From: Lachnospiraceae bacterium
GTDB taxonomy: Bacteria; Bacillota; Clostridia; Lachnospirales; Lachnospiraceae
NCBI GenBank assembly: GCA_017962825.1
Contig: JAGCUO010000109.1
Span: forward strand, 1 to 37,819
Reading direction: 5' to 3'
Length of the DNA stretch: 37,819 nucleotides
Of the stretch, positions 8,847-37,819 are shown piece by piece. The position numbers and the translations under genes were made by a program. The notes under the pieces were generated by a model, which was given only the letters and a program-made list of their open reading frames with translations, searched no databases and was not told the origin of the DNA. Positions within the stretch are counted from its first letter, which is position 1. Each line of letters opens with the position of its first letter.

Positions 8847-9815
8847 ATGAAACGTATAGCTGAGCGCCTTTATAACGGAATAATCAAAGAAAACCCCACT
8901 TTTGTCCTGACACTCGGAATGTGTCCCACGCTTGCGGTTACAACATCTGCGATAAACGGACTTGGAATGGGACTTACGACATGCGCCGTTCTTGCCTTGA
9001 GTAATCTTTTTATCTCGATCCTTAGAAAAGTACTACCCGATAAGGTAAGAATTCCCGCATTCATAGTGATCGTTGCATCATTTGTAACCATGGTTCAGCT
9101 CCTTTTGGAAGCTTACCTGCCCTCACTTAATCAGTCACTTGGAATATACATTCCGCTGATAGTGGTTAACTGTATCATCCTCGGACGTGCGGAGAGCTAC
9201 GCATATAAGAATCCGCCCATCCCTTCACTCTTTGACGGTATCGGAATGGGCCTCGGATTTACATTCGCTCTTACTATTCTCGGTATTTTCAGAGAGTTTA
9301 TCGGAAGCGGAACATTCTTCGGAAACAGAGTATTTCCCGAGGAGTACGGCGTGACGATCTTCGTTCTTGCCCCCGGTGCATTCTTCGTTCTTGCGATGCT
9401 TGTTGCTATCCAGAATTACATCAAGGATAAAATGGAAGCCAAGGGTAAAGATACTTCCAAGATCGGTTCCGGATGCGGAATGAACTGTATGGGATGTCCC
9501 GAAGCAAAGGGATGCTCAAAAGCAGAGAAGATAAAAGAAGCGGAAGATAACGATGAATCCGAAGAAGAGGAAAAGCCTTCTGAGGATAAGGAGAAAAAGG
9601 CTTCCGCTGCAGAAGAAAAAGAAGAGGTTAAATCTGAAACTTCCTCAGATGAACCTGAAAAAGAGCCTGCAGAGGAAGAAGATACGGAAGCTGAAGACGA
9701 TAAAGAGTCTGATGAAGAGAAGGAAGAATCTTCCGAGTCCGATTCGGATGATAAGAAACCTGCTCAGAACAAGCCCTCAAATAACAAGAAGAAAAAAGGC
9801 AAAAGGAGGAAATGA
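8847..9815 (+). CDS. rnfE: Rnf complex subunit RnfE with long charged C-terminal tail
   Basis: The first 195 residues are a normal RnfE: six membrane segments and the two half-membrane cysteines, Cys26 (GMCPTLAVT) and Cys109 (VNCIILGRAE), that share an iron-sulfur site with RnfA. The protein then goes on to 322 residues, about 100 more than usual. Right after the last helix comes a cysteine patch (C210, C214, C217, C223), followed by about 95 residues almost only of Glu, Lys, Asp and Ser, ending in a Lys/Arg cluster. The tail is low-complexity and probably disordered on the cytoplasmic side. RnfE starts directly after the rnfG stop (GGGGGA ribosome site) and its stop overlaps the reading start area of rnfA. 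Confidence 0.93.
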   Translation: MKRIAERLYNGIIKENPTFVLTLGMCPTLAVTTSAINGLGMGLTTCAVLALSNLFISILRKVLPDKVRIPAFIVIVASFVTMVQLLLEAYLPSLNQSLGIYIPLIVVNCIILGRAESYAYKNPPIPSLFDGIGMGLGFTFALTILGIFREFIGSGTFFGNRVFPEEYGVTIFVLAPGAFFVLAMLVAIQNYIKDKMEAKGKDTSKIGSGCGMNCMGCPEAKGCSKAEKIKEAEDNDESEEEEKPSEDKEKKASAAEEKEEVKSETSSDEPEKEPAEEEDTEAEDDKESDEEKEESSESDSDDKKPAQNKPSNNKKKKGKRRK

Positions 9816-14699: not shown

Positions 14700-16519
14700 A
14701 AAGAACTACTTCAGAAGAATATGTAAAGAGGCTTGATGCCTTAAGAAACGAAATGCTCGCCGCCGGGACAGACGTATACTATGTCCCGGGCGGTGATTTT
14801 CATATGTCCGAATACATTTCGGACTATTTTAAATGCAGAGAGTACCTGTCCGGTTTTGACGGATCCAACGGCGAGATGGTCATAACAAAGGACGGTGCGT
14901 ATCTCTGGACCGACGGAAGATACTTCCTGCAGGCTGACGAGCAGCTTCAGGGAACGGGCATCACTCTTATGAAAATGGGCGAGCCCGGTGTTCCCAAGCT
15001 TTCGGATTTTATAAAGGATGCTCTTCATGACGGAGAGTCACTGGGATTTGACGGCCGCCTTGTTCCCGCATATTTCTATGACATTATCAAAAAGAAAGTA
15101 GACGGTAATGATATTGCCTTTATTACCGATATAGACCTTGTGGGAAATATCTGGCAGGACAGACCTGCGCTTCCTTCCGGTAAAGCATGGATCCTTGATG
15201 ATTCTTACACAGGTCTTACTTTGGATGAGAAACTGTCCAAAGTCAGGGAGAAGCTTTCGGAAGATGATTGTGACATGCTTGTTTTATCATCTCTCGATGA
15301 TATCGCATGGCTCTTCGGATTCCGCGGAAATGATATCGATTATAATCCGGTTGCCCTTTCATATGCCGTTATTACATCCGATAAGAGCGTACTATACATG
15401 GATGAAGAGAAGGCTGCGGATATTAAAGATGTGCTTACATCCAAAGGTGTTGAGATCAAGGGCTATGAAGAGATCTTCTGCGATCTTAAGGCAATGGATC
15501 ATACTCTGAAAGTATGTCTTGACAGGTCCTGCACTAATCTGAAGCTTACATCATCACTTCCCGGTAATGTAAAAACCTTTGATAAGCCTTCACCTACCGT
15601 GCTTCTCAAGGCATGCAAGACCGAAACCGAAGTGGAGAATGAGAGAAAAGCGCATATCTCCGACGGCGCCGCGCTTACAAGGATCCTTTATTACCTTAAG
15701 AAGATACAGGGAACCGATGAGCTTTTAGATGGTAAGATCACCGAGCTTGATGTAGCGGAAAAGCTTCTTTCATACAGAGCGGAGGCTGATGATTTTAAGG
15801 GCGAGAGCTTTGCTCCCATAGTTGCTACAGGTGCACACGGAGCGATCATTCACTATGAGCCCACACCCGAGACCAATGTTCCTGTTGAAAATGATACGCT
15901 TATCCTTCTTGATACCGGCGGTCATTATATGAGAGGAACTACCGATGTTACAAGAACTGTTTCAATCGGTAACCCCTCTGAGAAGATGAGAAAGCTTTAT
16001 ACCGCGGTTCTTAAAGGAAACGTCGCTCTTTCAAATACGGTTTTCAAAAAAGGAACTGTCGGAAGTACACTCGATATCCTTGCAAGAAAGCCTCTTTGGG
16101 ACCTTGGATATGATTACAATCACGGAACCGGTCACGGTGTCGGATACCTTCTCAATGTGCATGAAGGTCCTCAGAATATTTCTACCGGAGTCCGCACAAA
16201 CGGAGGAACACCCTTTGAGATCGGAATGATCACATCGGACGAGCCCGGAGTATATCTGCCCGGAGAGTTCGGTATCAGGACTGAAAACATGATGGTATGT
16301 GTTCCCAGGATGAAGAACGAATTCGGAGAGTTCTACGGATTTGAGACTCTCACGATGGCGCCCTTTGACAGAGATCTTATAGATGTATCCATGCTTACCA
16401 ATGACGAATTGGAAGCAGTAAACAGGTATCATAAAGCAGTTTATGAGACTATATCGGATCTTCTTCCTGAGGAAGTCAAAAATTGGCTGTTTGAAGTTAC
16501 GAGACCATTGACCAGATGA
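14696..16519 (+). CDS. pepP: M24 family aminopeptidase P (Xaa-Pro aminopeptidase)
   Basis: Cytoplasmic dinuclear-metal peptidase that removes the first residue from peptides with proline in second place. The 607 residues show the long three-part form: two creatinase-type N-terminal domains (about 10-160 and 165-310), the pita-bread catalytic domain (about 320-545) and a C-terminal cap with ELEAVNRYHKAVYE (about 565-607). All metal ligands are seen: Asp406, Asp417, His480, Glu516 and Glu550. It overlaps thrC by 4 bases and the next gene by 4 bases (ATGA). A proline peptidase in a Pel operon is unexpected; it may simply be a housekeeping gene upstream. Confidence 0.94.
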   Translation: MKRTTSEEYVKRLDALRNEMLAAGTDVYYVPGGDFHMSEYISDYFKCREYLSGFDGSNGEMVITKDGAYLWTDGRYFLQADEQLQGTGITLMKMGEPGVPKLSDFIKDALHDGESLGFDGRLVPAYFYDIIKKKVDGNDIAFITDIDLVGNIWQDRPALPSGKAWILDDSYTGLTLDEKLSKVREKLSEDDCDMLVLSSLDDIAWLFGFRGNDIDYNPVALSYAVITSDKSVLYMDEEKAADIKDVLTSKGVEIKGYEEIFCDLKAMDHTLKVCLDRSCTNLKLTSSLPGNVKTFDKPSPTVLLKACKTETEVENERKAHISDGAALTRILYYLKKIQGTDELLDGKITELDVAEKLLSYRAEADDFKGESFAPIVATGAHGAIIHYEPTPETNVPVENDTLILLDTGGHYMRGTTDVTRTVSIGNPSEKMRKLYTAVLKGNVALSNTVFKKGTVGSTLDILARKPLWDLGYDYNHGTGHGVGYLLNVHEGPQNISTGVRTNGGTPFEIGMITSDEPGVYLPGEFGIRTENMMVCVPRMKNEFGEFYGFETLTMAPFDRDLIDVSMLTNDELEAVNRYHKAVYETISDLLPEEVKNWLFEVTRPLTR

Positions 16520-16785
16520 ATAACCAAATAAACAATATCAGCAATTATCGTATCACGGAAGCTGCGGGGAGATATTTTCTCTATGACATCACGGAACGCG
16601 GCCCTCTTCACAAGAAGCCGCTTCCCATGAACCGTACCGGATACGATATTGCCACGCTATGGCTAAAAGATTTAACCGAAGAAGCAATCATCAAGAAGCT
16701 TTCTTCACAATATGACATTGATCCCGACAAGATCGGAGAAGATGTTCGATCCTTTTTTTCCGACCTTCACAGAATGGGATATTGA
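16516..16785 (+). CDS. stand-alone PqqD-like (RRE) protein
   Basis: An 89-residue protein of the PqqD family, the fold that serves as RiPP recognition element and binds leader peptides. The pattern is clear in the second half: LPMNRTGYDIATLWL, then LTEEAIIKKLSSQYDID and DVRSFFSDLHRMGY, i.e. the helix-turn-helix-like part that follows a beta hairpin (RYFLYDIT). There is no radical SAM, lasso B2 or cyclase gene next to it. It starts on the pepP stop (ATGA) with no clear ribosome site, so it probably depends on translation coupling, and it ends 23 bases before pelD. Together with the PqqD-HPr-kinase fusion at 35480-36682 it hints that the far end of this region handles a peptide. Confidence 0.82.
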   Translation: MNNQINNISNYRITEAAGRYFLYDITERGPLHKKPLPMNRTGYDIATLWLKDLTEEAIIKKLSSQYDIDPDKIGEDVRSFFSDLHRMGY

Positions 16786-30731: not shown

Positions 30732-31761
30732 AATGGATATTGATATTGTAGTGCCCTGGGTGGATTCATCCGATCCCGAGTGGCAGGCAGAGAAAAGTAA
30801 ATATTCATCGGACAATTCTTACGGCGATCGCCCCGAGAGATTCAGAGAAAGGGGTCTGTTAAAGTACTTTTTCAGATGTATTGATAAGAACATGCCCTGG
30901 GTGAGAAATATATATTTTATTACTCGTAAGAACGTACCCGAATGGCTTAATGTATCAAATCCCAAGCTTCGTATAGTTAAGCATGAGGATTTTATACCTG
31001 CAAATGCACTTCCATGTTTTAACAGCTCCCTTATTGAAAGATACCTTCATCTGATCCCCGGTCTTTCGGAGCACTTTATATATTTCAATGATGATTGCTA
31101 TGTTCTTTCACCCGTAAGAAGCGATTTCTTTTTTCATAATGATCTTCCAAGGGACATGCTTGCATTTCAGCCTGTGGTGGCCAATCCCAATGATCCGGGA
31201 ATGTCGCATCTGTTTCTTAACGATGCGCTGGTTTTATCGAGACATTTTGATAAGAGAAAGACTGTAAAAGAAAACTTTGGCAAGTTCTTTCATATCGGAT
31301 ATCCTTTGTTTTATTTTATCTACAATGCACTTGAGATGTGCTTTCCCAAATTCACCGGTCTGTATTCGGTGCACAGTGCGGCTCCTCTTTTAAAAAGCAA
31401 TTTTGAAGAGCTTTGGGCTGAAGAAAGAGAGTATCTTGAATCCCTTGCGGGTAACAGATTCAGAAGCGATTCTGATGTTAACCAGTACCTTTTCAGGGAA
31501 TGGGGAAAGCTTAAGGGAAGGTTTTATCCTTCGAATATTACGCGACATGTTATGTATTCCGAGATATCGGATGATAACAGCAAGGTGATCAGGGTGATCG
31601 AGGCTAAAGGAAAGAGATACTTATTCCCTGCTGTAAAGATACTCTGCATTAATGACACTGTAAGTTCTCCTGAAGATTTATCTGTATCTAAACAACTGAT
31701 CGATGCTTTTGAATCAGTTTTCAGCGAAGCATCATCTTATGAAAAGAGATCGAATGAATAA
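30724..31761 (+). CDS. Stealth-family sugar-phosphotransferase
   Basis: A 345-residue protein of the Stealth family, which transfers a sugar-1-phosphate from a nucleotide sugar to a hydroxyl acceptor (as in capsule polymerases and the animal GlcNAc-1-phosphotransferase). All conserved regions can be followed: CR1 IDIVVPWVDSSDPEW (about 6-20); CR2 with RFRERGLLKYFFRC (about 40-53), MPWVRNIYFIT (about 58-68), LPCFNSSLIERYLH (about 97-110) and FIYFNDDCY (about 118-126); CR3 near 210-230 with GLYSVHSAAPLLKS; and a CR4-like end. It overlaps both neighbours by 8 bases. The acceptor is unknown. Confidence 0.88.
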   Translation: MNKMDIDIVVPWVDSSDPEWQAEKSKYSSDNSYGDRPERFRERGLLKYFFRCIDKNMPWVRNIYFITRKNVPEWLNVSNPKLRIVKHEDFIPANALPCFNSSLIERYLHLIPGLSEHFIYFNDDCYVLSPVRSDFFFHNDLPRDMLAFQPVVANPNDPGMSHLFLNDALVLSRHFDKRKTVKENFGKFFHIGYPLFYFIYNALEMCFPKFTGLYSVHSAAPLLKSNFEELWAEEREYLESLAGNRFRSDSDVNQYLFREWGKLKGRFYPSNITRHVMYSEISDDNSKVIRVIEAKGKRYLFPAVKILCINDTVSSPEDLSVSKQLIDAFESVFSEASSYEKRSNE

Positions 31762-32983
31762 AGTTCAGAATGTATTTGCTCAGATTGTAAAAAATTCTCT
31801 TGCGGATAATAAAAATCTCTGCGCTTCTTATGCGGATGATCTGCCGGGAGCCGAATATGCAGAGCTTGTTCGTCTTGCCAGAATCCATAAACTTTCTGCT
31901 CTGGTATATGATGAATTCCAACGGTTAAGTCTCTGCCCTCCTGCGCTTAGGCGGTGGATTGAACACATGGCTTTGAGTACGGTTAATACTTCATTTGACC
32001 TCCTCTATACTTCCAAAGATATTTCTGAGTGTTTTTCCCAAAACGGAATTCCGTCAGTGATCATCAAGGGAATCACTGCGGCTTCGTATTATACCCAGCC
32101 TTTATACAGAAAAAGCGGGGATATTGATCTTCTGATACCTCAAAGTATTCTGTATGATGCTGTTAACGTTTGCAAAGGAATTGGATATGAGGTAAAAGAA
32201 ATTCAAAGAGCTCATCACCATGTCGTAATGGCTAAGGAAGGTAATCCTGATATCGAACTTCATACCATGCTTGCCGAACCTTTTGATGATGAGAGCGTAA
32301 ATGCACTTATCGCAGGGCAGTTGTCCGAGTTGTTTAAAGATTACGAAAGTGAAAAGAAATGTTTTCAAAGTAAAGATATTCTTGGGTTTTCTTTTGAAAT
32401 GCTCTCAGATGCATATATGGCTTATGAGTTGCTTCTCCATATGCTGCAGCATTATCTGAGGTCGGGGTTCGGGATAAGACTTCTATGCGACTGGGTGGTT
32501 CTTTGGAACAATCCCCAATGTGAGAGTGCGGCGGATGAATATTTGTCACTTGTTGACGAATGCGGTATCAAGGGATTTTCTGATATGATCACGTGCGTAT
32601 GTATCAGATATCTTGGCCTTGATGAGAAGGTTGCAGAGTTATTGAATGTAAGTACCGACTTCACAGATCCGGAGCTTGAGACCTTTTTCGAAGAGTTCAT
32701 GAATGCGGGTGAATTCGGAAAGACATCAAAAGACCGTATGGTTTCGCTCAGAGGAAACAGACCATTAGATTATTTCAGGGAATTTCACCATCAGATGAAG
32801 CTGAATTTTCCGAAAGCGTCAAGATATTACCTCATCTGGCCGATACTTTGGATAGTGACTTTTTCCCGCTTTATGATCAATAATAAAAAGGTAAGAAATG
32901 TGAAATTGTCATCCGTGATTTCGAAAGCCGGAGAGAGGGGAAAACTGAATGCTAAATTAAGCCTGTTTTCGCTGAAAAAATAG
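31754..32983 (+). CDS. NTP_transf_5 nucleotidyltransferase-fold protein
   Basis: A 409-residue protein of the uncharacterised nucleotidyltransferase family PF14907. The core reads VIIKGITAASYY then LYRKSGDIDLLIP, giving Lys105, Gly106 and the metal-binding-like GDID at 122-125, followed by the usual His-rich stretch HHHVVMAKEG and IELHTMLAEPF (about 170-192). Family members are often next to PqqD, HPr-kinase-like and lasso or other RiPP genes, and they are thought to move a nucleotide or nucleotide-sugar onto a peptide; no activity was read from sequence. I start at 31754, which overlaps the Stealth stop (ATGAATAA) and has an AAGAGA site; ATG 31703 and 31739 are earlier alternatives. It is the last gene of the long co-directional run. 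Confidence 0.85.
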   Translation: MNKVQNVFAQIVKNSLADNKNLCASYADDLPGAEYAELVRLARIHKLSALVYDEFQRLSLCPPALRRWIEHMALSTVNTSFDLLYTSKDISECFSQNGIPSVIIKGITAASYYTQPLYRKSGDIDLLIPQSILYDAVNVCKGIGYEVKEIQRAHHHVVMAKEGNPDIELHTMLAEPFDDESVNALIAGQLSELFKDYESEKKCFQSKDILGFSFEMLSDAYMAYELLLHMLQHYLRSGFGIRLLCDWVVLWNNPQCESAADEYLSLVDECGIKGFSDMITCVCIRYLGLDEKVAELLNVSTDFTDPELETFFEEFMNAGEFGKTSKDRMVSLRGNRPLDYFREFHHQMKLNFPKASRYYLIWPILWIVTFSRFMINNKKVRNVKLSSVISKAGERGKLNAKLSLFSLKK

Positions 32984-32994
32984 CAATTTTTAAA

Positions 32995-33023
32995 TTGACA
33001 AAACAGGTGTCACGGAATAGACT
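32995..33023 (+). promoter_or_regulatory. predicted SigA promoter for the precursor-like gene
   Basis: A perfect TTGACA (32995-33000) and TAGACT (33018-33023) are 17 bases apart, about 70 bases upstream of the gene at 33101. This separates the peptide cassette from the long upstream run. Confidence 0.6.
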
Positions 33024-33053
33024 TGAGAAAGTTAAAAGTGTTTTCACGGGATA
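33010..33053 (+). promoter_or_regulatory. direct repeat TCACGG(A/G)ATA around the promoter
   Basis: TCACGGAATA at 33010-33019 is repeated as TCACGGGATA at 33044-33053, 34 bases apart, about three helical turns. The first copy lies within the promoter spacer and touches the -10 box, the second lies about 15 bases beyond the expected start of transcription. This looks like a pair of operator half-sites, but no regulator gene sits next to it. Confidence 0.35.
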
Positions 33054-33100
33054 TGAAAGTTCGAATTTAGGCGGTTTAATCCCGAGAGTAGGAAATGAAG

Positions 33101-33658
33101 ATGTTTAAGTACGAAAAGCCCATAGTTCTTGAGTTAGAAGATGTTGCAGAAGGAATCTACGCTGCCAGCGGAGATGAAGAAACAGGCGGTGAGACCGGAG
33201 GAGAAACCGGTGGAGGAGAGACCGGCGGTGGTGAATCCGGCGGCGAAAGCGGAGGAGAAGAGCCTGTAGTTGATTATGAAAATGATGCGGATTGCTGGGT
33301 GCCCAGTTTCTGGGAAGTTCAGAGAGTATCTTCCAATCCTTCCGATTCATTTGTTATCTACACAGTAAAAGGTGTACACAAGACCAATCTTAAGCATATT
33401 TCGTCTAAACAGAGAGTATCTGTTCAGCTTAGTTCGGCAGGATATACGGATGCAATCTGTCAGGAGTATCCCGTTACAGCAAATGGTACTACAGTAGAGT
33501 TTACCAGAGAAAAACTCGGTGATGCATATCACTCCGGAGATGAGTTTACCGTTAATATCAGGTTCAGCTGTCCTCCTGAGGTTGCAGCAGAACTCAGAGT
33601 TCTTGGTGTTACCATTTATTGTACCCACGCAGAAAATGTTCAGGGCGGATGGGACTGA
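33101..33658 (+). CDS. RiPP-like precursor or small exported protein with Gly/Glu/Ser/Thr repeats
   Basis: A 185-residue protein with three parts. Residues 1-23 resemble a RiPP leader (MFKYEKPIVLELEDVAEGIY), ending in AASG at 21-24, a candidate cleavage site; it has no hydrophobic core, so it is no Sec signal. Residues 28-53 are six tandem (T/S)GG(G)E units. Residues 57-185 form a probable beta-sandwich domain with four cysteines (65, 120, 157, 174), ending in QGGWD. I start at 33101 because TAGGA at 33089-33093 leaves 7 bases; ATG 33095 is too close. It has its own promoter and is followed by a hairpin and an ABC exporter. No family match comes to mind; it could also be an ordinary surface protein carried by the exporter. 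Confidence 0.65.
   Translation: MFKYEKPIVLELEDVAEGIYAASGDEETGGETGGETGGGETGGGESGGESGGEEPVVDYENDADCWVPSFWEVQRVSSNPSDSFVIYTVKGVHKTNLKHISSKQRVSVQLSSAGYTDAICQEYPVTANGTTVEFTREKLGDAYHSGDEFTVNIRFSCPPEVAAELRVLGVTIYCTHAENVQGGWD
33182..33259 (+). repeat. in-frame minisatellite coding six (T/S)GG(G)E units
   Basis: The stretch codes six tandem units TGGE, TGGE, TGGGE, TGGGE, SGGE, SGGE. The bases vary among units (codons GGC, GGT and GGA are mixed), so the repeat is kept at protein level more than at DNA level. Each unit gives one hydroxyl residue next to glycine and glutamate. Confidence 0.9.
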
Positions 33659-33680
33659 TCCGTCTTGCATCTGATCTATG

Positions 33681-33717
33681 ATGCACTGTTTGCTATTGCA
33701 GACAGTGCATTTTACTT
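33681..33717 (+). terminator. terminator-like hairpin between precursor and exporter
   Basis: ATGCACTGT (33681-33689) pairs with ACAGTGCAT (33702-33710), extended inside by TGC/GCA, and is followed by TTTACTTTT. It starts 23 bases after the precursor stop and stands 28 bases before the exporter. Partial read-through would keep the precursor mRNA more abundant than the exporter mRNA. Confidence 0.75.
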
Positions 33718-33744
33718 TTCTCTTCATAGAATTAGTATGGTGTT

Positions 33745-35493
33745 ATGCGTTTACTGAATAAGATTAATAAAAAGATAAAATGGCCGAGTTTGAAGGATCG
33801 CCTGTGGTGGATCTTCGGTTTTGCACGCAGATACTGGAAGGAAATGGTCCTTTATGTTCTGCTCGGACTTTCGGGAACGGCACTTACATTTATCAGTGCA
33901 CTTGTTTCAAAGAATCTGGTCGATATAGTAACGGGACATGATACAGGTCAGGTAGTATCAACATTCATTACGATGATCTGTATGACTCTTGCTACGACTC
34001 TTATAGGGCAGATATCTTCATATTTTTCTACCATGGTAAGTTTGAAGGTGGAAAACAATATCAAGGCTCAGATTTTTGAGAAGATCATGGTTTCAGACTG
34101 GGAGGAACTCAGCAGGTTCCGTACCGGTGATCTGTTGGTACGCTGGAGCGGTGATACATCCGGTCTTGCAAGCGGACTTCTCAACTATATCCCGAATATG
34201 ATCGTTTTTTTCGTAAGATTCGTCATCGCATTTTGCATGATGGCTTATTACGATGTTTCTTTTGCCGTAATCTCTCTTGTGGGTATTCCTTTTACATTTC
34301 TTATATCTCGTAAGCTTACGAAGAGACTGAAGAAGAGCAATGCCCGCAGCATGACAATGAATTCCAGGATAAGCTCATTTAACCAGGAAGCTTTTTCAAA
34401 CATTCAGACCATAAAGGCATTCGACCTGATCAAGTCTTACATCGATGAATTAAAAGTGATCCAGGAAGACCAGGTTAAGATCAGACTGAGTTATCAGAGG
34501 ATATCTATCATCACTTCGATCCTGATGGTAACCGTAGGTCTTTTGATTTCATATACTTCCTATGGATGGGGAATTTACAGAGTATGGAGCGGAGTGATCA
34601 CCTACGGAACCATGACCATGTTCCTGACATTGTCATCAACTTTAAGCGGTTCCCTCAATAATCTGTTTACTCTAATTCCCTCCGGTATTCCTCTGGCAGG
34701 TGCCGCATCCAGACTTATGGAAATCGAGAATTTGCGGGAAGAGGATTTTTCGGGACGCGAAGAGGTAAAGAAGTATTTTGAAGAGCACGGTAAAGACGGC
34801 ATTGGTATCAAGATTGATGATGTAAAATATTCCTACAATAACGGAAATGAAGTTTATGACGGAGTCTCCCTTTATGCGGATCCCAATGAGGTTGTTGCTC
34901 TCATCGGACCTTCCGGAGAGGGTAAGACAACCATGCTCAGACTCCTTCTGGCACTTATAAGACCGGCAGAAGGAAGTGCTGTTGTGTACGGTAAGGATGC
35001 GGATCCCATTCCGCTGACTTCTTCAGTTCGTCAGCTTATTTCATATGTTCCCCAGGGAAATACCATGTTTTCCGGAACCATCGCTGATAATATGCGCAAG
35101 GTCAAAGAAGATGCAACGGATGATGAGATCATAGATGCACTTAAGACAGCCTGTGCATGGAAATTTGTTGAGAAATTACCGAAGGGTATTAACAGCGAGA
35201 TCAAAGAAAGAGGCGGAGGATTCTCTGAAGGACAGGCTCAGAGACTGTCCATCGCCAGAGCGATACTCAGAAGGTCTCCCATACTTTTGCTTGACGAAGC
35301 AACCTCGGCACTTGACCCGGAAACTTCCAAGCAACTGCTCAAAAACATTACCGAGGATAAATATCCCAGAACATGCATCCTGACTACCCACAGACCCGCA
35401 ATGCTTAAAGGATGCGACAGAGTTTACAGGATCGCTGACAGGCACTGTCATGAGCTTAGCAAAGAGGAGATCCGGGAAGTCATAAATTCGTGA
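33745..35493 (+). CDS. ABC exporter, fused membrane and ATPase domains
   Basis: A 582-residue half-transporter: six membrane helices (about 30-310) and an ATP-binding domain (about 350-575). The ATPase motifs are complete: Walker A 388-395 (GPSGEGKT), signature FSEGQAQRLSIARAIL near 493-508, Walker B ILLLDEATS with Asp517/Glu518, and the H-loop His at TTHRPAM near 550. It should work as a homodimer. There is no N-terminal C39 peptidase domain, so leader removal would need another enzyme, such as the S26B-like peptidase at 36736. The ribosome site is weak. Its last 14 bases overlap the convergent PqqD-kinase gene. Cargo by neighbourhood: the protein at 33101, not proven. Confidence 0.9.
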   Translation: MRLLNKINKKIKWPSLKDRLWWIFGFARRYWKEMVLYVLLGLSGTALTFISALVSKNLVDIVTGHDTGQVVSTFITMICMTLATTLIGQISSYFSTMVSLKVENNIKAQIFEKIMVSDWEELSRFRTGDLLVRWSGDTSGLASGLLNYIPNMIVFFVRFVIAFCMMAYYDVSFAVISLVGIPFTFLISRKLTKRLKKSNARSMTMNSRISSFNQEAFSNIQTIKAFDLIKSYIDELKVIQEDQVKIRLSYQRISIITSILMVTVGLLISYTSYGWGIYRVWSGVITYGTMTMFLTLSSTLSGSLNNLFTLIPSGIPLAGAASRLMEIENLREEDFSGREEVKKYFEEHGKDGIGIKIDDVKYSYNNGNEVYDGVSLYADPNEVVALIGPSGEGKTTMLRLLLALIRPAEGSAVVYGKDADPIPLTSSVRQLISYVPQGNTMFSGTIADNMRKVKEDATDDEIIDALKTACAWKFVEKLPKGINSEIKERGGGFSEGQAQRLSIARAILRRSPILLLDEATSALDPETSKQLLKNITEDKYPRTCILTTHRPAMLKGCDRVYRIADRHCHELSKEEIREVINS

Positions 35494-36682
35494 TGAAATC
35501 CTGTAAAAGCTTCTGAGCCTCGGGCTCTTTGGTGCAATAAAGCCGTAAAGAAGTGATGCAGGAAGAAACCGGCTCAAGGTCCTGAATCATTTTTTCTAAG
35601 GATGCAGCATTCCAGAGAGGAGAGATGGTTCTCCTGCTCAGTGTCACCAAAGCCTTTTCGTGATCAAGTGATTCAATTCTGTTTTCGGGAGCCTGTTTGA
35701 GGAAAATAACACCGCCCAAGGGGAAATCCCCACAGGTGTAAACTTCTGAAGTTCCGCACCAGGGAATTCCGTAGGTGAAAGGGACTCCTTCCTTCATACC
35801 AATCAGGTTCAGGTCTCCGTTGATATCCTTGGCATCAGAATAAGTAGTCCAAAGACGGGCATGAGTTGATTTTCCGGTTCCTGCGGGAGCGGAGAACAGC
35901 CATGCTTTTTCTCTATAGTAAACGGAAGCGGAGTGGATGGCATACATTCCCCTGCCTTTTGCAAGCAGCAGGAAGGGAATCCTTATTGCGTGGAAGATTT
36001 CTTCCGAAGCCGTTTTGTTATCGTATCCGGGAGTCAAACATATCAGAACATCCAAATTTTTTTTACGGATATACATGCTCTTTACGGCAGCATTTTTTTT
36101 GTATCCGATGATATGGAAGCTGTCGGATTCGGAAATTGTCATTTCGTCTGCGTCAACGAGGATTGTTTCTTTTTCCAAAACTGTGATATTTTTTTCGGTG
36201 GTATGTATCCGTATATTTGGCTCAATCGGATCGTTCGTTTTAAAAGAAGCAAGTTTTGCATCAATAAGAGTTTTGTCTAGCGATAAGTTGATACAAATGC
36301 CTGCGATGAGAACTTTAAAAATCCCACCGTCCGTTTCTGATTTTTCAAAGACTTCATTAAAAGAAGCTTCGCCGGGGCGAATAAATGCTGCAGGAGCCTT
36401 CGGCTTATTGTTTAAGATGATCCCGAGTTTTTCCAGGTGATCAAGGAAATAACCCATATCGCTTATTACCTGTCCTTCACCTGCTTCCGGAATATTTTCT
36501 TTTGAAATAAAAGCCTGTATCAGATCATCATCGGAGGTGTGATCTTCGAGCATATTCCAAAGATCTGCTCCGGAACGGCTTATTTTGATACCGCGTCTAT
36601 GATCGCTGATACTTTGGCCGTAGGGAAGCAGATAACAGCTTTTTCCGATATTTATCAATGTAAAATAAGGATTTTTGAACAT
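35480..36682 (-). CDS. PqqD domain fused to an HPr-kinase-like domain
   Basis: A 400-residue fusion. Residues 1-95 are a PqqD-like domain (SCYLLPYG, ISRSGADLWNMLEDHTSDDDLIQAF, DMGYFLDHLEKLGIIL). Residues about 105-400 are an HPrK-related domain: AIHSASV (248-254), a Walker A SAPAGTGKST at 264-273, the acidic NGDLNLI at 288-294 (Asp290), TYGIPWCGTSEVY (303-315) and GGVIFLKQ near 323. HPrK-related kinases in lasso clusters phosphorylate the precursor peptide; here the PqqD part could hold the leader for the kinase. It is convergent with the ABC exporter and has its own extended -10 promoter and GAGGT ribosome site. It cannot be true HprK/P: the N-terminal domain differs and the genome's real hprK would be longer-range. 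Confidence 0.85.
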   Translation of the reverse strand: MFKNPYFTLINIGKSCYLLPYGQSISDHRRGIKISRSGADLWNMLEDHTSDDDLIQAFISKENIPEAGEGQVISDMGYFLDHLEKLGIILNNKPKAPAAFIRPGEASFNEVFEKSETDGGIFKVLIAGICINLSLDKTLIDAKLASFKTNDPIEPNIRIHTTEKNITVLEKETILVDADEMTISESDSFHIIGYKKNAAVKSMYIRKKNLDVLICLTPGYDNKTASEEIFHAIRIPFLLLAKGRGMYAIHSASVYYREKAWLFSAPAGTGKSTHARLWTTYSDAKDINGDLNLIGMKEGVPFTYGIPWCGTSEVYTCGDFPLGGVIFLKQAPENRIESLDHEKALVTLSRRTISPLWNAASLEKMIQDLEPVSSCITSLRLYCTKEPEAQKLLQDFITNL

Positions 36683-36702
36683 ATGAACCTCACTGCCGGT
36701 TT

Positions 36703-36711
36703 ATTATATCA
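36703..36711 (-). promoter_or_regulatory. extended -10 promoter of the PqqD-kinase gene
   Basis: Read on the minus strand, TGATATAAT (plus 36711-36703) is a perfect extended -10 box. It lies 21 bases from the start codon, so the leader is short. No good -35 box is seen at the usual distance, which extended -10 promoters do not need. Confidence 0.5.
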
Positions 36712-36735
36712 TTCAAGGGGTTAAAACTTCCATTT

Positions 36736-37194
36736 ATGACGGATAAAGATACTTCAAAACTAAATCCAGAAACCTTACTCAGGGAGGGGAGGACGGTCAG
36801 TATATCACCTAGGGGCTACAGTATGTATCCTCTTTTGATACCGGGCACTGACAGAGTGATAATAGAGCCTTTGAGCGGAATCAGGCTTAAAAAGCGCGAT
36901 ATTGCGCTTTTCAGGAGAAAGGGCAGCAAGCTCGTGCTTCACAGGATCGTAATGATTAAAAAGGATGAAGCCGGGCGGCGCCTGTATTATTTTTGCGGAG
37001 ACAATCAAAAGGAGATCGAGGGCCCCGTATACGAGGAGGACATCTGCGGAGTCGTGACCCGTATCGAGAAGCGGAAATTGAAATTTTCGGTCCGGAATCC
37101 GCTCTATATTTTGTCCGTTTTCATCTGGATGAAACTCAGACCCATAAGACCTAATATTTCAAGGGTTTTAGCACGTTTTAAGAAGGCGTTTTAG
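36736..37194 (+). CDS. S24/S26 family peptidase, Ser/His (S26B-like) type
   Basis: A 152-residue peptidase-fold protein. The nucleophile segment is SISPRGYSMYPLL with Ser29, and the partner base is His69 in KLVLHRIVMI, the Ser-His pair of the SipW/Sec11 (S26B) class rather than the Ser-Lys of SipS or LexA. The GD-like turn reads KKRDIALFRR. A weak membrane-touching segment lies at about 122-135, but there is no N-terminal anchor as in SipW. It diverges from the PqqD-kinase gene across a 53-base gap. Small S24/S26 proteins of this type are known next to HPrK-related and NTP_transf_5 genes; the natural substrate could be the leader of the protein at 33101. The ribosome site is poor. Confidence 0.8.
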   Translation: MTDKDTSKLNPETLLREGRTVSISPRGYSMYPLLIPGTDRVIIEPLSGIRLKKRDIALFRRKGSKLVLHRIVMIKKDEAGRRLYYFCGDNQKEIEGPVYEEDICGVVTRIEKRKLKFSVRNPLYILSVFIWMKLRPIRPNISRVLARFKKAF

Positions 37195-37285: not shown

Positions 37286-37819
37286 ATGGCAAACATCGAT
37301 CTTTCCAAGTATGGAATCACAGGTGCAACAGAGATCGTCTACAATCCCGATTTCGATACTCTGTACAAAGAAGAATTAAGAGATGACCTCACCGGTTATG
37401 ACAAGGGACAGCTCACCGAGCTCGGTGCCGTTAACGTTATGACAGGTGTTTACACCGGTCGTTCTCCCAAAGATAAGTTTATCGTAATGGATGATCAGTC
37501 CAAGGATACCGTTTGGTGGACCACTCCCGAGTATCCCAACGACAACCATCCCGCTACCCAGGAAGCTTGGGCAGCTTGTAAGAAGCTCGCAGTAGAGGAG
37601 CTTTCCGGAAAGAGACTTTTCGTTGTAGATGCTTTCTGCGGCGCAAACAAGGACACCCGTCTTGCAGTCCGTTTCATCGTTGAGGTTGCTTGGCAGGCTC
37701 ACTTCATCAAGAACATGTTCATCCAGCCTTCCAAGGAAGAAGAGGCTGCTTTCGAGCCCGATTTCATCGTTTACAACGCTTCCAAGGCAAAGGTTGAGAA
37801 TTACAAGGAGCTCGGACTC
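37286..37819 (+). CDS. pckA: phosphoenolpyruvate carboxykinase (ATP), 5' part
   Basis: The first 178 codons of an ATP-dependent PEP carboxykinase; the reading frame runs off the window edge without a stop. It interconverts oxaloacetate and PEP with ATP, and in rumen and gut anaerobes often runs in the CO2-fixing direction. Landmarks are [16 protein letters not shown] (about 52-67, substrate-binding Arg in GRSP), VDAFCGAN (about 114-121) and [18 protein letters not shown] (about 128-145). AAGAGGA at 37270-37277 is the ribosome site. The biased codon use (AAG, CTT/CTC, GTT) points to high expression. It has its own promoter, so it is not part of the peptide cassette. Confidence 0.95.

Follow-up and report, generated by a model that had tools for sequence, protein, structure and literature searches.

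What might five neighbouring genes make, if one encodes a precursor with a conserved leader, another a kinase with its own leader-reading domain, and the others a nucleotidyltransferase-fold enzyme, an exporter and a signal-peptidase-like protease? The question is raised by a cassette at positions 31754-37194 of contig JAGCUO010000109.1 (assembly GCA_017962825.1) of a Lachnospiraceae bacterium. The whole contig of 37,819 nucleotides is called the window here, and is contig 8 of a 3.03-Mb genome that is 81% complete. An earlier note on this DNA had picked out the five parts, and their open reading frames (ORFs), for NTP_transf_5, precursor, ATP-binding cassette (ABC) exporter, PqqD-kinase fusion and S26 peptidase, are all open and lie where the note had placed them; the grouping also recurs across the family. 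We put the probability at a little over 0.6 that the cassette serves to tag proteins with phosphate under the guidance of a leader and to export them, in the manner of the linear polyphosphorylated peptides (LPP) of Bacilli. This reading is based on a part-for-part match of the genes, the co-occurrence of leader and fusion, a conserved serine, and conserved residues of the peptidase and of the RRE, the recognition element for ribosomally synthesized and post-translationally modified peptides (RiPPs).

The LPP were described in May 2026 from the lpp cluster of Paenibacillus alginolyticus, and the main text of that paper establishes the roles of kinase, peptidase and RRE by deletion and by in vitro cleavage (PMC13381572). 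The kinase phosphorylates Ser3 of the LppA core, a SipW-like peptidase removes the leader, and LppA that lacks phosphate is poorly cleaved in vivo; the biological role of LPP is unknown according to the discoverers. The earlier note had left the product class of the cassette unknown, a judgement that no longer stands, since the gene set matches that of LPP part for part. Both have a precursor with a YxxPx[V/L] leader, an RRE, a SipW-like S26 peptidase, an MsbA-like exporter and an NTP transferase; the HprK kinase of LPP has a probable counterpart in the cassette. The LPP core set is without a cyclase or B2 protease, as are the scanned proteins of the window, and its precursors of 35-200 amino acids have variable C termini. 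LPP were first met within capsular polysaccharide loci, and the cassette also lies near polysaccharide genes.

Two defining features nevertheless separate the cassette from LPP. The RRE is a discrete protein in LPP but is fused to the kinase here, and the LPP leader reads P-x9-F-x-[T/A] whereas that of the cassette reads P-x9-E-G-V-Y-A-A-S-G, with Glu rather than Phe after the spacer. The core of the studied LPP is a linear peptide of 45 residues, whereas the cores of the cassette family have 53-161 residues, fall into 13 sequence clusters and mostly contain two or more Cys; the hosts are Bacilli in one case and Lachnospiraceae in the other. The cassette thus appears to work like LPP and yet to stand outside LPP proper.

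The conserved gene set, the leader, its serine and the residues of RRE, kinase and peptidase are directly observed, and from them we infer the following reactions. The YxxP leader of the precursor would dock on the RRE half of the fusion, as homology and the conserved contact residues suggest, and so bring the adjoining kinase to the precursor. The kinase would then phosphorylate the conserved Ser of the xxSG motif, perhaps repeatedly, and NTP_transf_5 may attach a sugar to the phosphoserine, by analogy with PsmN and pseudomycoidin. The SipW-like peptidase would cut the leader away just before the Ser, most likely between VYA and ASG, and the domain secreted by the MsbA-like exporter would be about 53-161 residues long and would carry the modified Ser close to its N terminus. 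More speculatively, the product would probably act at the cell surface or in the polysaccharide matrix.

If this scheme is right, a peptide class reported in 2026 from Bacilli would extend to gut Lachnospiraceae. New relative to LPP are a kinase with a leader-reading domain of its own and substrates resembling entire protein domains, and the conserved Ser offers a single testable modification site. Literature searches returned no paper with the leader string AEGVYAASG and none that joins HprK, PqqD and Lachnospiraceae. The main text of the LPP paper (PMC13381572) mentions neither Lachnospiraceae nor Clostridia, although its supplements could list members, and its mentions of fusion refer to assay tags in the passages covered, 12 of 14 places. 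By term search, the word "kinase" is absent from the searched text of RRE-Finder (PMC7470986) and of its 2025 successor (PMC12710340).

The leader and its conserved serine

The window precursor scores 56.1 bits (E 1.4e-14) against the leader profile, of which it is itself one row, and neither Pfam nor NCBIfam gives a match for it at E 0.1 or better. Its start is more likely at 33101 than at 33095 because the nearest relative, at locus L114, has the same start (L and G numbers are our labels for loci and genomes). Of the 24 leader positions the two proteins share all but 2, in contrast to their diverged linkers and cores. Altogether 127 leader proteins were found, of which 119 are distinct by their last 60 residues and 116 were parsed; L048 (without YxxP), L154 (misparsed because of an earlier Pro) and L164|18 (whose ORF starts within the leader) were left out.

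The parsed leaders give the consensus YxxP-x9-EG[VI][YF]xxSG. Tyr is present in 113 of the 116, exactly nine residues separate Pro from Glu in 113, and the residue at Pro+2 is V, I or L in 110. The motif continues with Glu in 116, Gly in 108, V/I in 116, Y/F in 116, Ala in 95, Ala in 105, Ser in 115 and Gly in 114. These counts are partly built in, since P, [VITLMA] and [YFWL] were fixed positions of the parser, which also gave preference to Y, E, G and A; the Ser and the final Gly were unscored. A further bias towards Ser comes from ORFs rescued outside the greedy set, which needed xxSG, and for this reason a control was made with a profile that ends before AASG, run in six frames over the window and 124 loci. 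Ser follows in 104 of 105 distinct hits that reach the end of the profile, the sole exception being AAGSG in L120.

The conserved Ser lies at Pro+16, and the LPP consensus as published places Ser3 of LppA at Pro+15. No position among the 12 that follow is conserved as Ser or Thr. Since it is nearly invariant, close to the LppA site and without a conserved Ser or Thr in those positions, the Ser of SG is the predicted phospho-acceptor. Cleavage is predicted most likely between VYA and ASG, with neighbouring bonds also possible. Such a cut agrees with the [T/A] at -1 in LPP and with the small residue that signal peptidases favour at -1; an ungapped alignment to the LPP leader would place it two residues earlier.

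The earlier note had described a Gly-repeat protein. It is a precursor, as proposed, but the repeat is only a linker found in 2 of 116 precursors (at least three GG in the first 45 core residues), and the conserved part is the leader. A kinase acting on Thr or Ser of the repeat would yield a polyphosphorylated or nucleotidylated repeat peptide, and the window repeat does contain GET/GES units. That outcome is improbable, however, given how rare the Gly-rich form is, that both Thr and Ser are missing from the Gly-rich part of L114, and that a Ser stands at the leader end in all but one of the parsed proteins; the repeat was discarded as the modified part on the first two of these grounds. The precursor had also been credited with a promoter of its own. 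A single 10-of-12 match lies at 32995, and the region holds 12 matches against 12.6 expected from shuffles, so that the matches do not rise above chance.

The enzymes of the cassette

In the docking proposed above, the leader would be read by the N-terminal RRE that is here joined to the kinase. The PqqD model scores 23.2 bits on the window fusion in one scan, against a cut-off of 23.4, and 26.8 bits, over the cut-off, in another. A profile of 17 fusions matches RRE structures of TbiB1 (5v1u, E 0.00058), LppB (9x8z, 0.014), PbaB1 (9x90, 0.022) and TfuB1 (6jx3, 0.22). In LppB, residues D70, N33 and F74 hold the leader Tyr and Pro, with D70 holding the Tyr, according to the LPP main text (PMC13381572). 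Among 100 distinct fusions (108 proteins less six repeats and two split kinases), 93 have Asp, 90 have Asn and 87 have Phe at the equivalent positions, by our own mapping through a partial alignment. The kinase half keeps a P-loop G-x-G-K, N-G-D-x-N, P-W-x-G-x-S and other motifs in at least 97 of the same 100. A PqqD-HPr-kinase fusion, as first described, is therefore borne out as a fusion, and the kinase label is weaker: the window kinase has no HprK family match in Pfam or NCBIfam, only ScmC at E 0.011, and its identity as an HprK-like kinase is probable.

Two further families combine an HprK-related kinase with a PqqD chaperone, namely HPr-rel-A (TIGR04352 HprK_rel_A and TIGR04353 PqqD_rel_X) and SynChlorMet (ScmC and ScmD). 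The fusions match these models weakly, far under the curated cut-offs, and the proteins are separate in those systems, which also have other partners.

The best NCBIfam match of the S26 protein is sigpep_I_arch, at E 1.9e-7 and with 31.1 bits where the cut-off is 51.85; SipW follows at E 2.6e-4. Its Ser29, His69 and Asp89 are invariant in 10 of 10 aligned proteins, and the LppS mutants S29A, H68A and D93A are reported to give no cleavage (PMC13381572). An alignment of 10 NTP_transf_5 proteins keeps K105-G106, G122-D123, D125, E168 and H170 invariant, so that the G-D-x-D motif is retained. According to a review (PMC9266682), PsmN adds hexoses to phosphoserine in pseudomycoidin, the alternative being nucleotidylation followed by the action of a host glycosyltransferase. 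The suggestion that the peptide is phosphorylated or nucleotidylated agrees with the kinase-like centre in its first half; for its second half, nucleotidylation is itself possible, and addition of a sugar to phosphoserine is the better-precedented role for NTP_transf_5. The exporter has no C39 peptidase domain among its Pfam and NCBIfam matches. Among the 50 fetched loci compared, exporters of fusion loci score 619-744 bits against the window exporter, whereas those beside unfused kinases score at most 503.

Could the cassette instead belong to a lasso- or paeninodin-like peptide, with the B2 protease and cyclase encoded at some other place in the genome? Paeninodin and pseudomycoidin clusters, as reviewed (PMC9266682), have an HprK-like kinase and a nucleotidyltransferase that attach phosphate and sugar to a Ser, and paeninodin-type clusters share with the cassette a [Y/W]xxP leader read by an RRE. 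They also have a B2 protease, an Asn-synthetase-like cyclase and a short core, whereas neither enzyme is among the 18 window proteins scanned with Pfam (a set that takes in all cassette genes), with no whole-genome cyclase search made, and a SipW-type peptidase is found instead, adjoining the kinase in 17 of 25 fusion genomes. The cores are far larger than lasso cores (median 113.5 residues), and three or four Cys occur in 71 of 116. We regard a lasso product as very unlikely. The same scan of 18 proteins, which did not extend to the other window ORFs, bears out the earlier statement that radical S-adenosylmethionine (SAM), YcaO and lasso enzymes are lacking. ORFs of more than 250 amino acids with CxxxCxxC occur in 3 of 25 fusion loci (the window, L042 and L050); those of the window, at 8847 and 10419, lie more than 20 kb from the cassette and look like electron-transport proteins.

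Conservation across genomes

A search for the fusion in 299 family genomes gave some match in 73; neighbourhoods were fetched, and leader and kinase profiles were run over 397 genomes. The leader profile finds 27 genomes at E <=0.01 and 23 below 1e-5. The kinase profile finds 92 at <=1e-10, of which, by our reading of the rows, 25 encode PqqD and kinase in a single open frame. The earlier note had set as a refuting outcome that precursor and kinase occur mostly apart, and the cassette came through this check. Leader and full-length fusion are found together in 22 of the 397 genomes, the leader being present in 23 and the fusion in 25 (Fisher p 7e-32, with kinship ignored); G096 adds a fusion with a weak leader match. 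The kinase profile was built from 17 genomes, most of which also contributed to the leader profile; the other 380 are a fair test, and among these the leader occurs in 7, the fusion in 8 and both in 6 (p 4.9e-11, again with kinship ignored). An accidental gathering of neighbours in a polysaccharide locus might be suspected, since the locus is rich in glycosyltransferases and G116, a genome of the same genus, is without leader, fusion, peptidase and NTP_transf_5. The co-occurrence statistics leave this explanation with almost no probability, and chance clustering was rejected on that basis.

The other parts travel with the fusion as well. Of the 25 fusion genomes, 22 encode the peptidase; by our reading of the coordinates it lies no more than 0.6 kb from the kinase in 17, within 5 kb in one more and elsewhere in four. 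NTP_transf_5 is present in 22 at E <1e-75. The latter count bears on whether the leader is mainly a secretion tag, phosphorylation being a transient licence for cleavage and export and the mature protein unmodified. Poor cleavage in vivo of LppA without phosphate (PMC13381572) would suit such a role, as would the many unrelated cargo domains that have only the leader in common. The predicted cut, however, leaves the mature protein with the Ser, and most fusion genomes retain NTP_transf_5; we think a purely transient phosphate unlikely, while giving it some weight.

Sister kinases occur in the same family at 16 loci (L052-L067) that have an unfused or split kinase or, in L064, a lone PqqD piece. 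Some have relatives of S26 and NTP_transf_5 (L055, L061), but none of the 16 has the EGVYAASG leader, and a radical-SAM-like CxxxCxxC ORF of more than 250 amino acids is present in 10. At L052 (6883-7689) and L038 (13125-13937), YxxPx[L/V] appears near the start of an ORF (e.g. KYQKPQLTYDELAAAL) beside response-regulator-like ORFs and near PqqD-like ORFs; judged by eye, these are possibly signalling proteins read by an RRE.

A single peptide pattern run over GTDB species genomes found 168 relatives, and the best 80 of them were used. These named relatives are mostly Lachnospiraceae, Roseburia, Acetatifactor, Blautia and Eubacterium, with a few Oscillospiraceae, Erysipelotrichaceae and Candidatus Gastranaerophilales. 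Cultured commensals among them are Blautia luti MSK.16.34 (L164) and Eubacterium plexicaudatum ASF492 (L177), the latter with a match to PelF/PelG. Among the 46 loci of at least 18 kb, the exporter is found in 44, the leader in 41, the peptidase in 30, NTP_transf_5 in 29 and all four in 23. The counts are lower bounds, since the ORF filter hid the peptidases of G076, G158, G012 and G337, later found beside the kinase. Five of the 46 loci (six of all 80) repeat genomes already seen; 41 remain without them, with the exporter in 39 and the leader in 36 by subtraction.

A number of observations weigh against an LPP-like system. G023 (60% complete) and G049 have a fusion but no leader, peptidase or NTP_transf_5, nor an exporter of the cassette type in the locus; their fusions are the lowest-scoring of the 25. 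G096 has no peptidase and only weak NTP_transf_5 relatives, the peptidase match of G389 is weak and on a different contig, and G146 (68% complete) has three leader proteins without a full-length fusion, peptidase or NTP_transf_5. Ten of the 80 named loci are without a strong exporter match and 14 are without a leader, and a six-frame search of five leaderless loci of at least 18 kb found none. HprK families match the relatives' kinases only below cut-off. No effect of LppN, the counterpart of NTP_transf_5, could be detected in the published work with a heterologous host (PMC13381572), and a leader without the LPP Px9Fx[T/A] may be cleaved at a different site. Finally, polysaccharide-locus markers (PelF, PelG, and DUF4832 or Stealth relatives) occur in 17 of the 25 fusion loci but, once repeats are removed, in only 28 of the 74 named ones, and Pel genes alone in 8 of 25 and 4 of 74, so that the link to a matrix is weak and the Pel setting of the window is not general.

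Some fetched stretches have leader genes but no kinase (L100, L103, L106, L107, L108-L110, L111, L112 and L113), and such genes may encode substrates in trans. Except for L108-L110, which are from G146, these stretches come from genomes that have a fusion, for some of them (L107, L113) on the same contig.

Cargo domains and polysaccharide setting

The 116 cores are 53-161 residues long and fall into 13 single-linkage clusters of 80, 16, 4, 3, 2, 2, 2 and 2 members plus five single sequences. At least two Cys are present in 94, and a strongly hydrophobic stretch in one; the cores, we infer, are folded proteins. The window core belongs to the largest cluster, in which an alignment of 48 of the 80 members has one invariant His and nearly invariant Cys, Gly, second His, Phe and Asp. 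Scanned singly against Pfam, these 48 gave nothing convincing (CBM_X2 was commonest, in 3 of 48 with a best E of 0.012; the lowest E, 0.00068, was for ribosomal S11 in one member), and the cluster had no match in the PDB (best E 0.36). No solved structure was matched by profiles built from the peptidase, NTP_transf_5 and another core type. With leaders removed, pairwise hhalign joined none of the five largest clusters convincingly (best E 0.003, probability 10); an alignment of two core types at E 1.3e-23 was discarded, because the leader had been included.

In the third cluster of four members, one matches Pfam CBM_2 over the cut-off (E 4.7e-6), two match under it (9.8e-5 and 0.0011) and one is unmatched. 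A protein at L108 (9874-10356) has the leader followed by a ubiquitin-like domain, with a ubiquitin match below the Pfam cut-off (E 2.2e-4); a protein at L109, which was not Pfam-scanned, was noted alongside it as having the same layout. The cluster of 16 is rich in Cys (e.g. L046 12333-12707 and L043 12109-12453), with C-x-S, G-C-x-G-C, C-G-L and P-x-W-E in eight aligned members, and the single member scanned had no Pfam or NCBIfam match. A separate Cys-rich cluster is shorter, at 53-58 residues (L043 8591-8836, L101, L112).

A tentative and rather doubtful extension is that the one leader serves as a general tag-and-export route for unrelated domains, and that the phosphoserine or phospho-sugar serine joins them to the Pel-like or other exopolysaccharide of the locus. 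Were the product coupled to exopolysaccharide, an LPP-type role would become directly testable, and gut commensals would have a route by which to build their surface; were the anchoring true, RiPP machinery would have been turned to the post-translational anchoring of matrix proteins. A literature search joining PelF, PelG and Lachnospiraceae yielded nothing judged related.

Table 1. Features of the cassette and one separate RRE gene, in window positions
Feature	Positions	Strand	Basis
NTP_transf_5 nucleotidyltransferase-fold enzyme, LppN/PsmN-like	31754..32983	+	Pfam PF14907, E 9.6e-32
Precursor: leader, Gly-rich linker, C-terminal domain	33095 or 33101..33658	+	leader profile; core cluster
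Leader MFKYEKPIVLELEDVAEGIYAASG with YxxP RRE-binding motif	33101..33172	+	116 parsed leaders
Codon of conserved Ser, predicted phospho-acceptor	33167..33169	+	Ser in 115/116 leaders
Acidic Gly-rich linker	33173..33292	+	Gly-rich form in 2/116 precursors
C-terminal domain with conserved Cys and His	33293..33655	+	alignment of 48/80 cluster members
Terminator-like hairpin 3' of precursor	33680..33711	+	14 pairs, T-rich tail
MsbA-like ABC exporter without C39 peptidase domain	33745..35493	+	ABC_membrane, ABC_tran
RRE (PqqD) fused to probable HprK-like kinase	35480..36682	-	PqqD match; RRE structure matches
SipW/archaeal-type S26 signal-peptidase-like putative leader peptidase, LppS-like	36736..37194	+	sigpep_I_arch, SipW matches
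Separate small PqqD/RRE protein, first in Pel-like operon	16516..16785	+	PqqD 33.6 bits, over cut-off

The hairpin in Table 1 lies in the gap between precursor and exporter; terminator-like sites in the scan numbered 5 against 4.5 in shuffles, which is not above chance. The Pel-like operon, at about 16.8-24.6 kb of the window, includes DUF2194, a DUF3492 glycosyltransferase, which we take to be of the PelF type, and PelG (E 1.3e-142). The window also has further glycosyltransferases, DUF4874/DUF4832 proteins and Stealth proteins ahead of the cassette.

The separate small PqqD protein lies directly upstream of an epimerase-domain gene and about 19 kb from the fusion, an RRE in a polysaccharide operon without an obvious RiPP enzyme; ORFs of 87-90 amino acids are found at the equivalent position in L036, L042 and L044. 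On the 3' side of the cassette, a gene at 37286-37819 that is broken by the contig end is read as phosphoenolpyruvate (PEP) carboxykinase, an enzyme that has a common fold with HprK. It is most likely a bystander, since L035 alone has a relative among 50 fetched loci that were compared. On contig 107 of the genome (L003, 1468-2850), a protein of 460 amino acids has a sub-threshold PqqD match and the radical-SAM-like motif CNLNCSYC, and is probably a separate, ordinary maturase.

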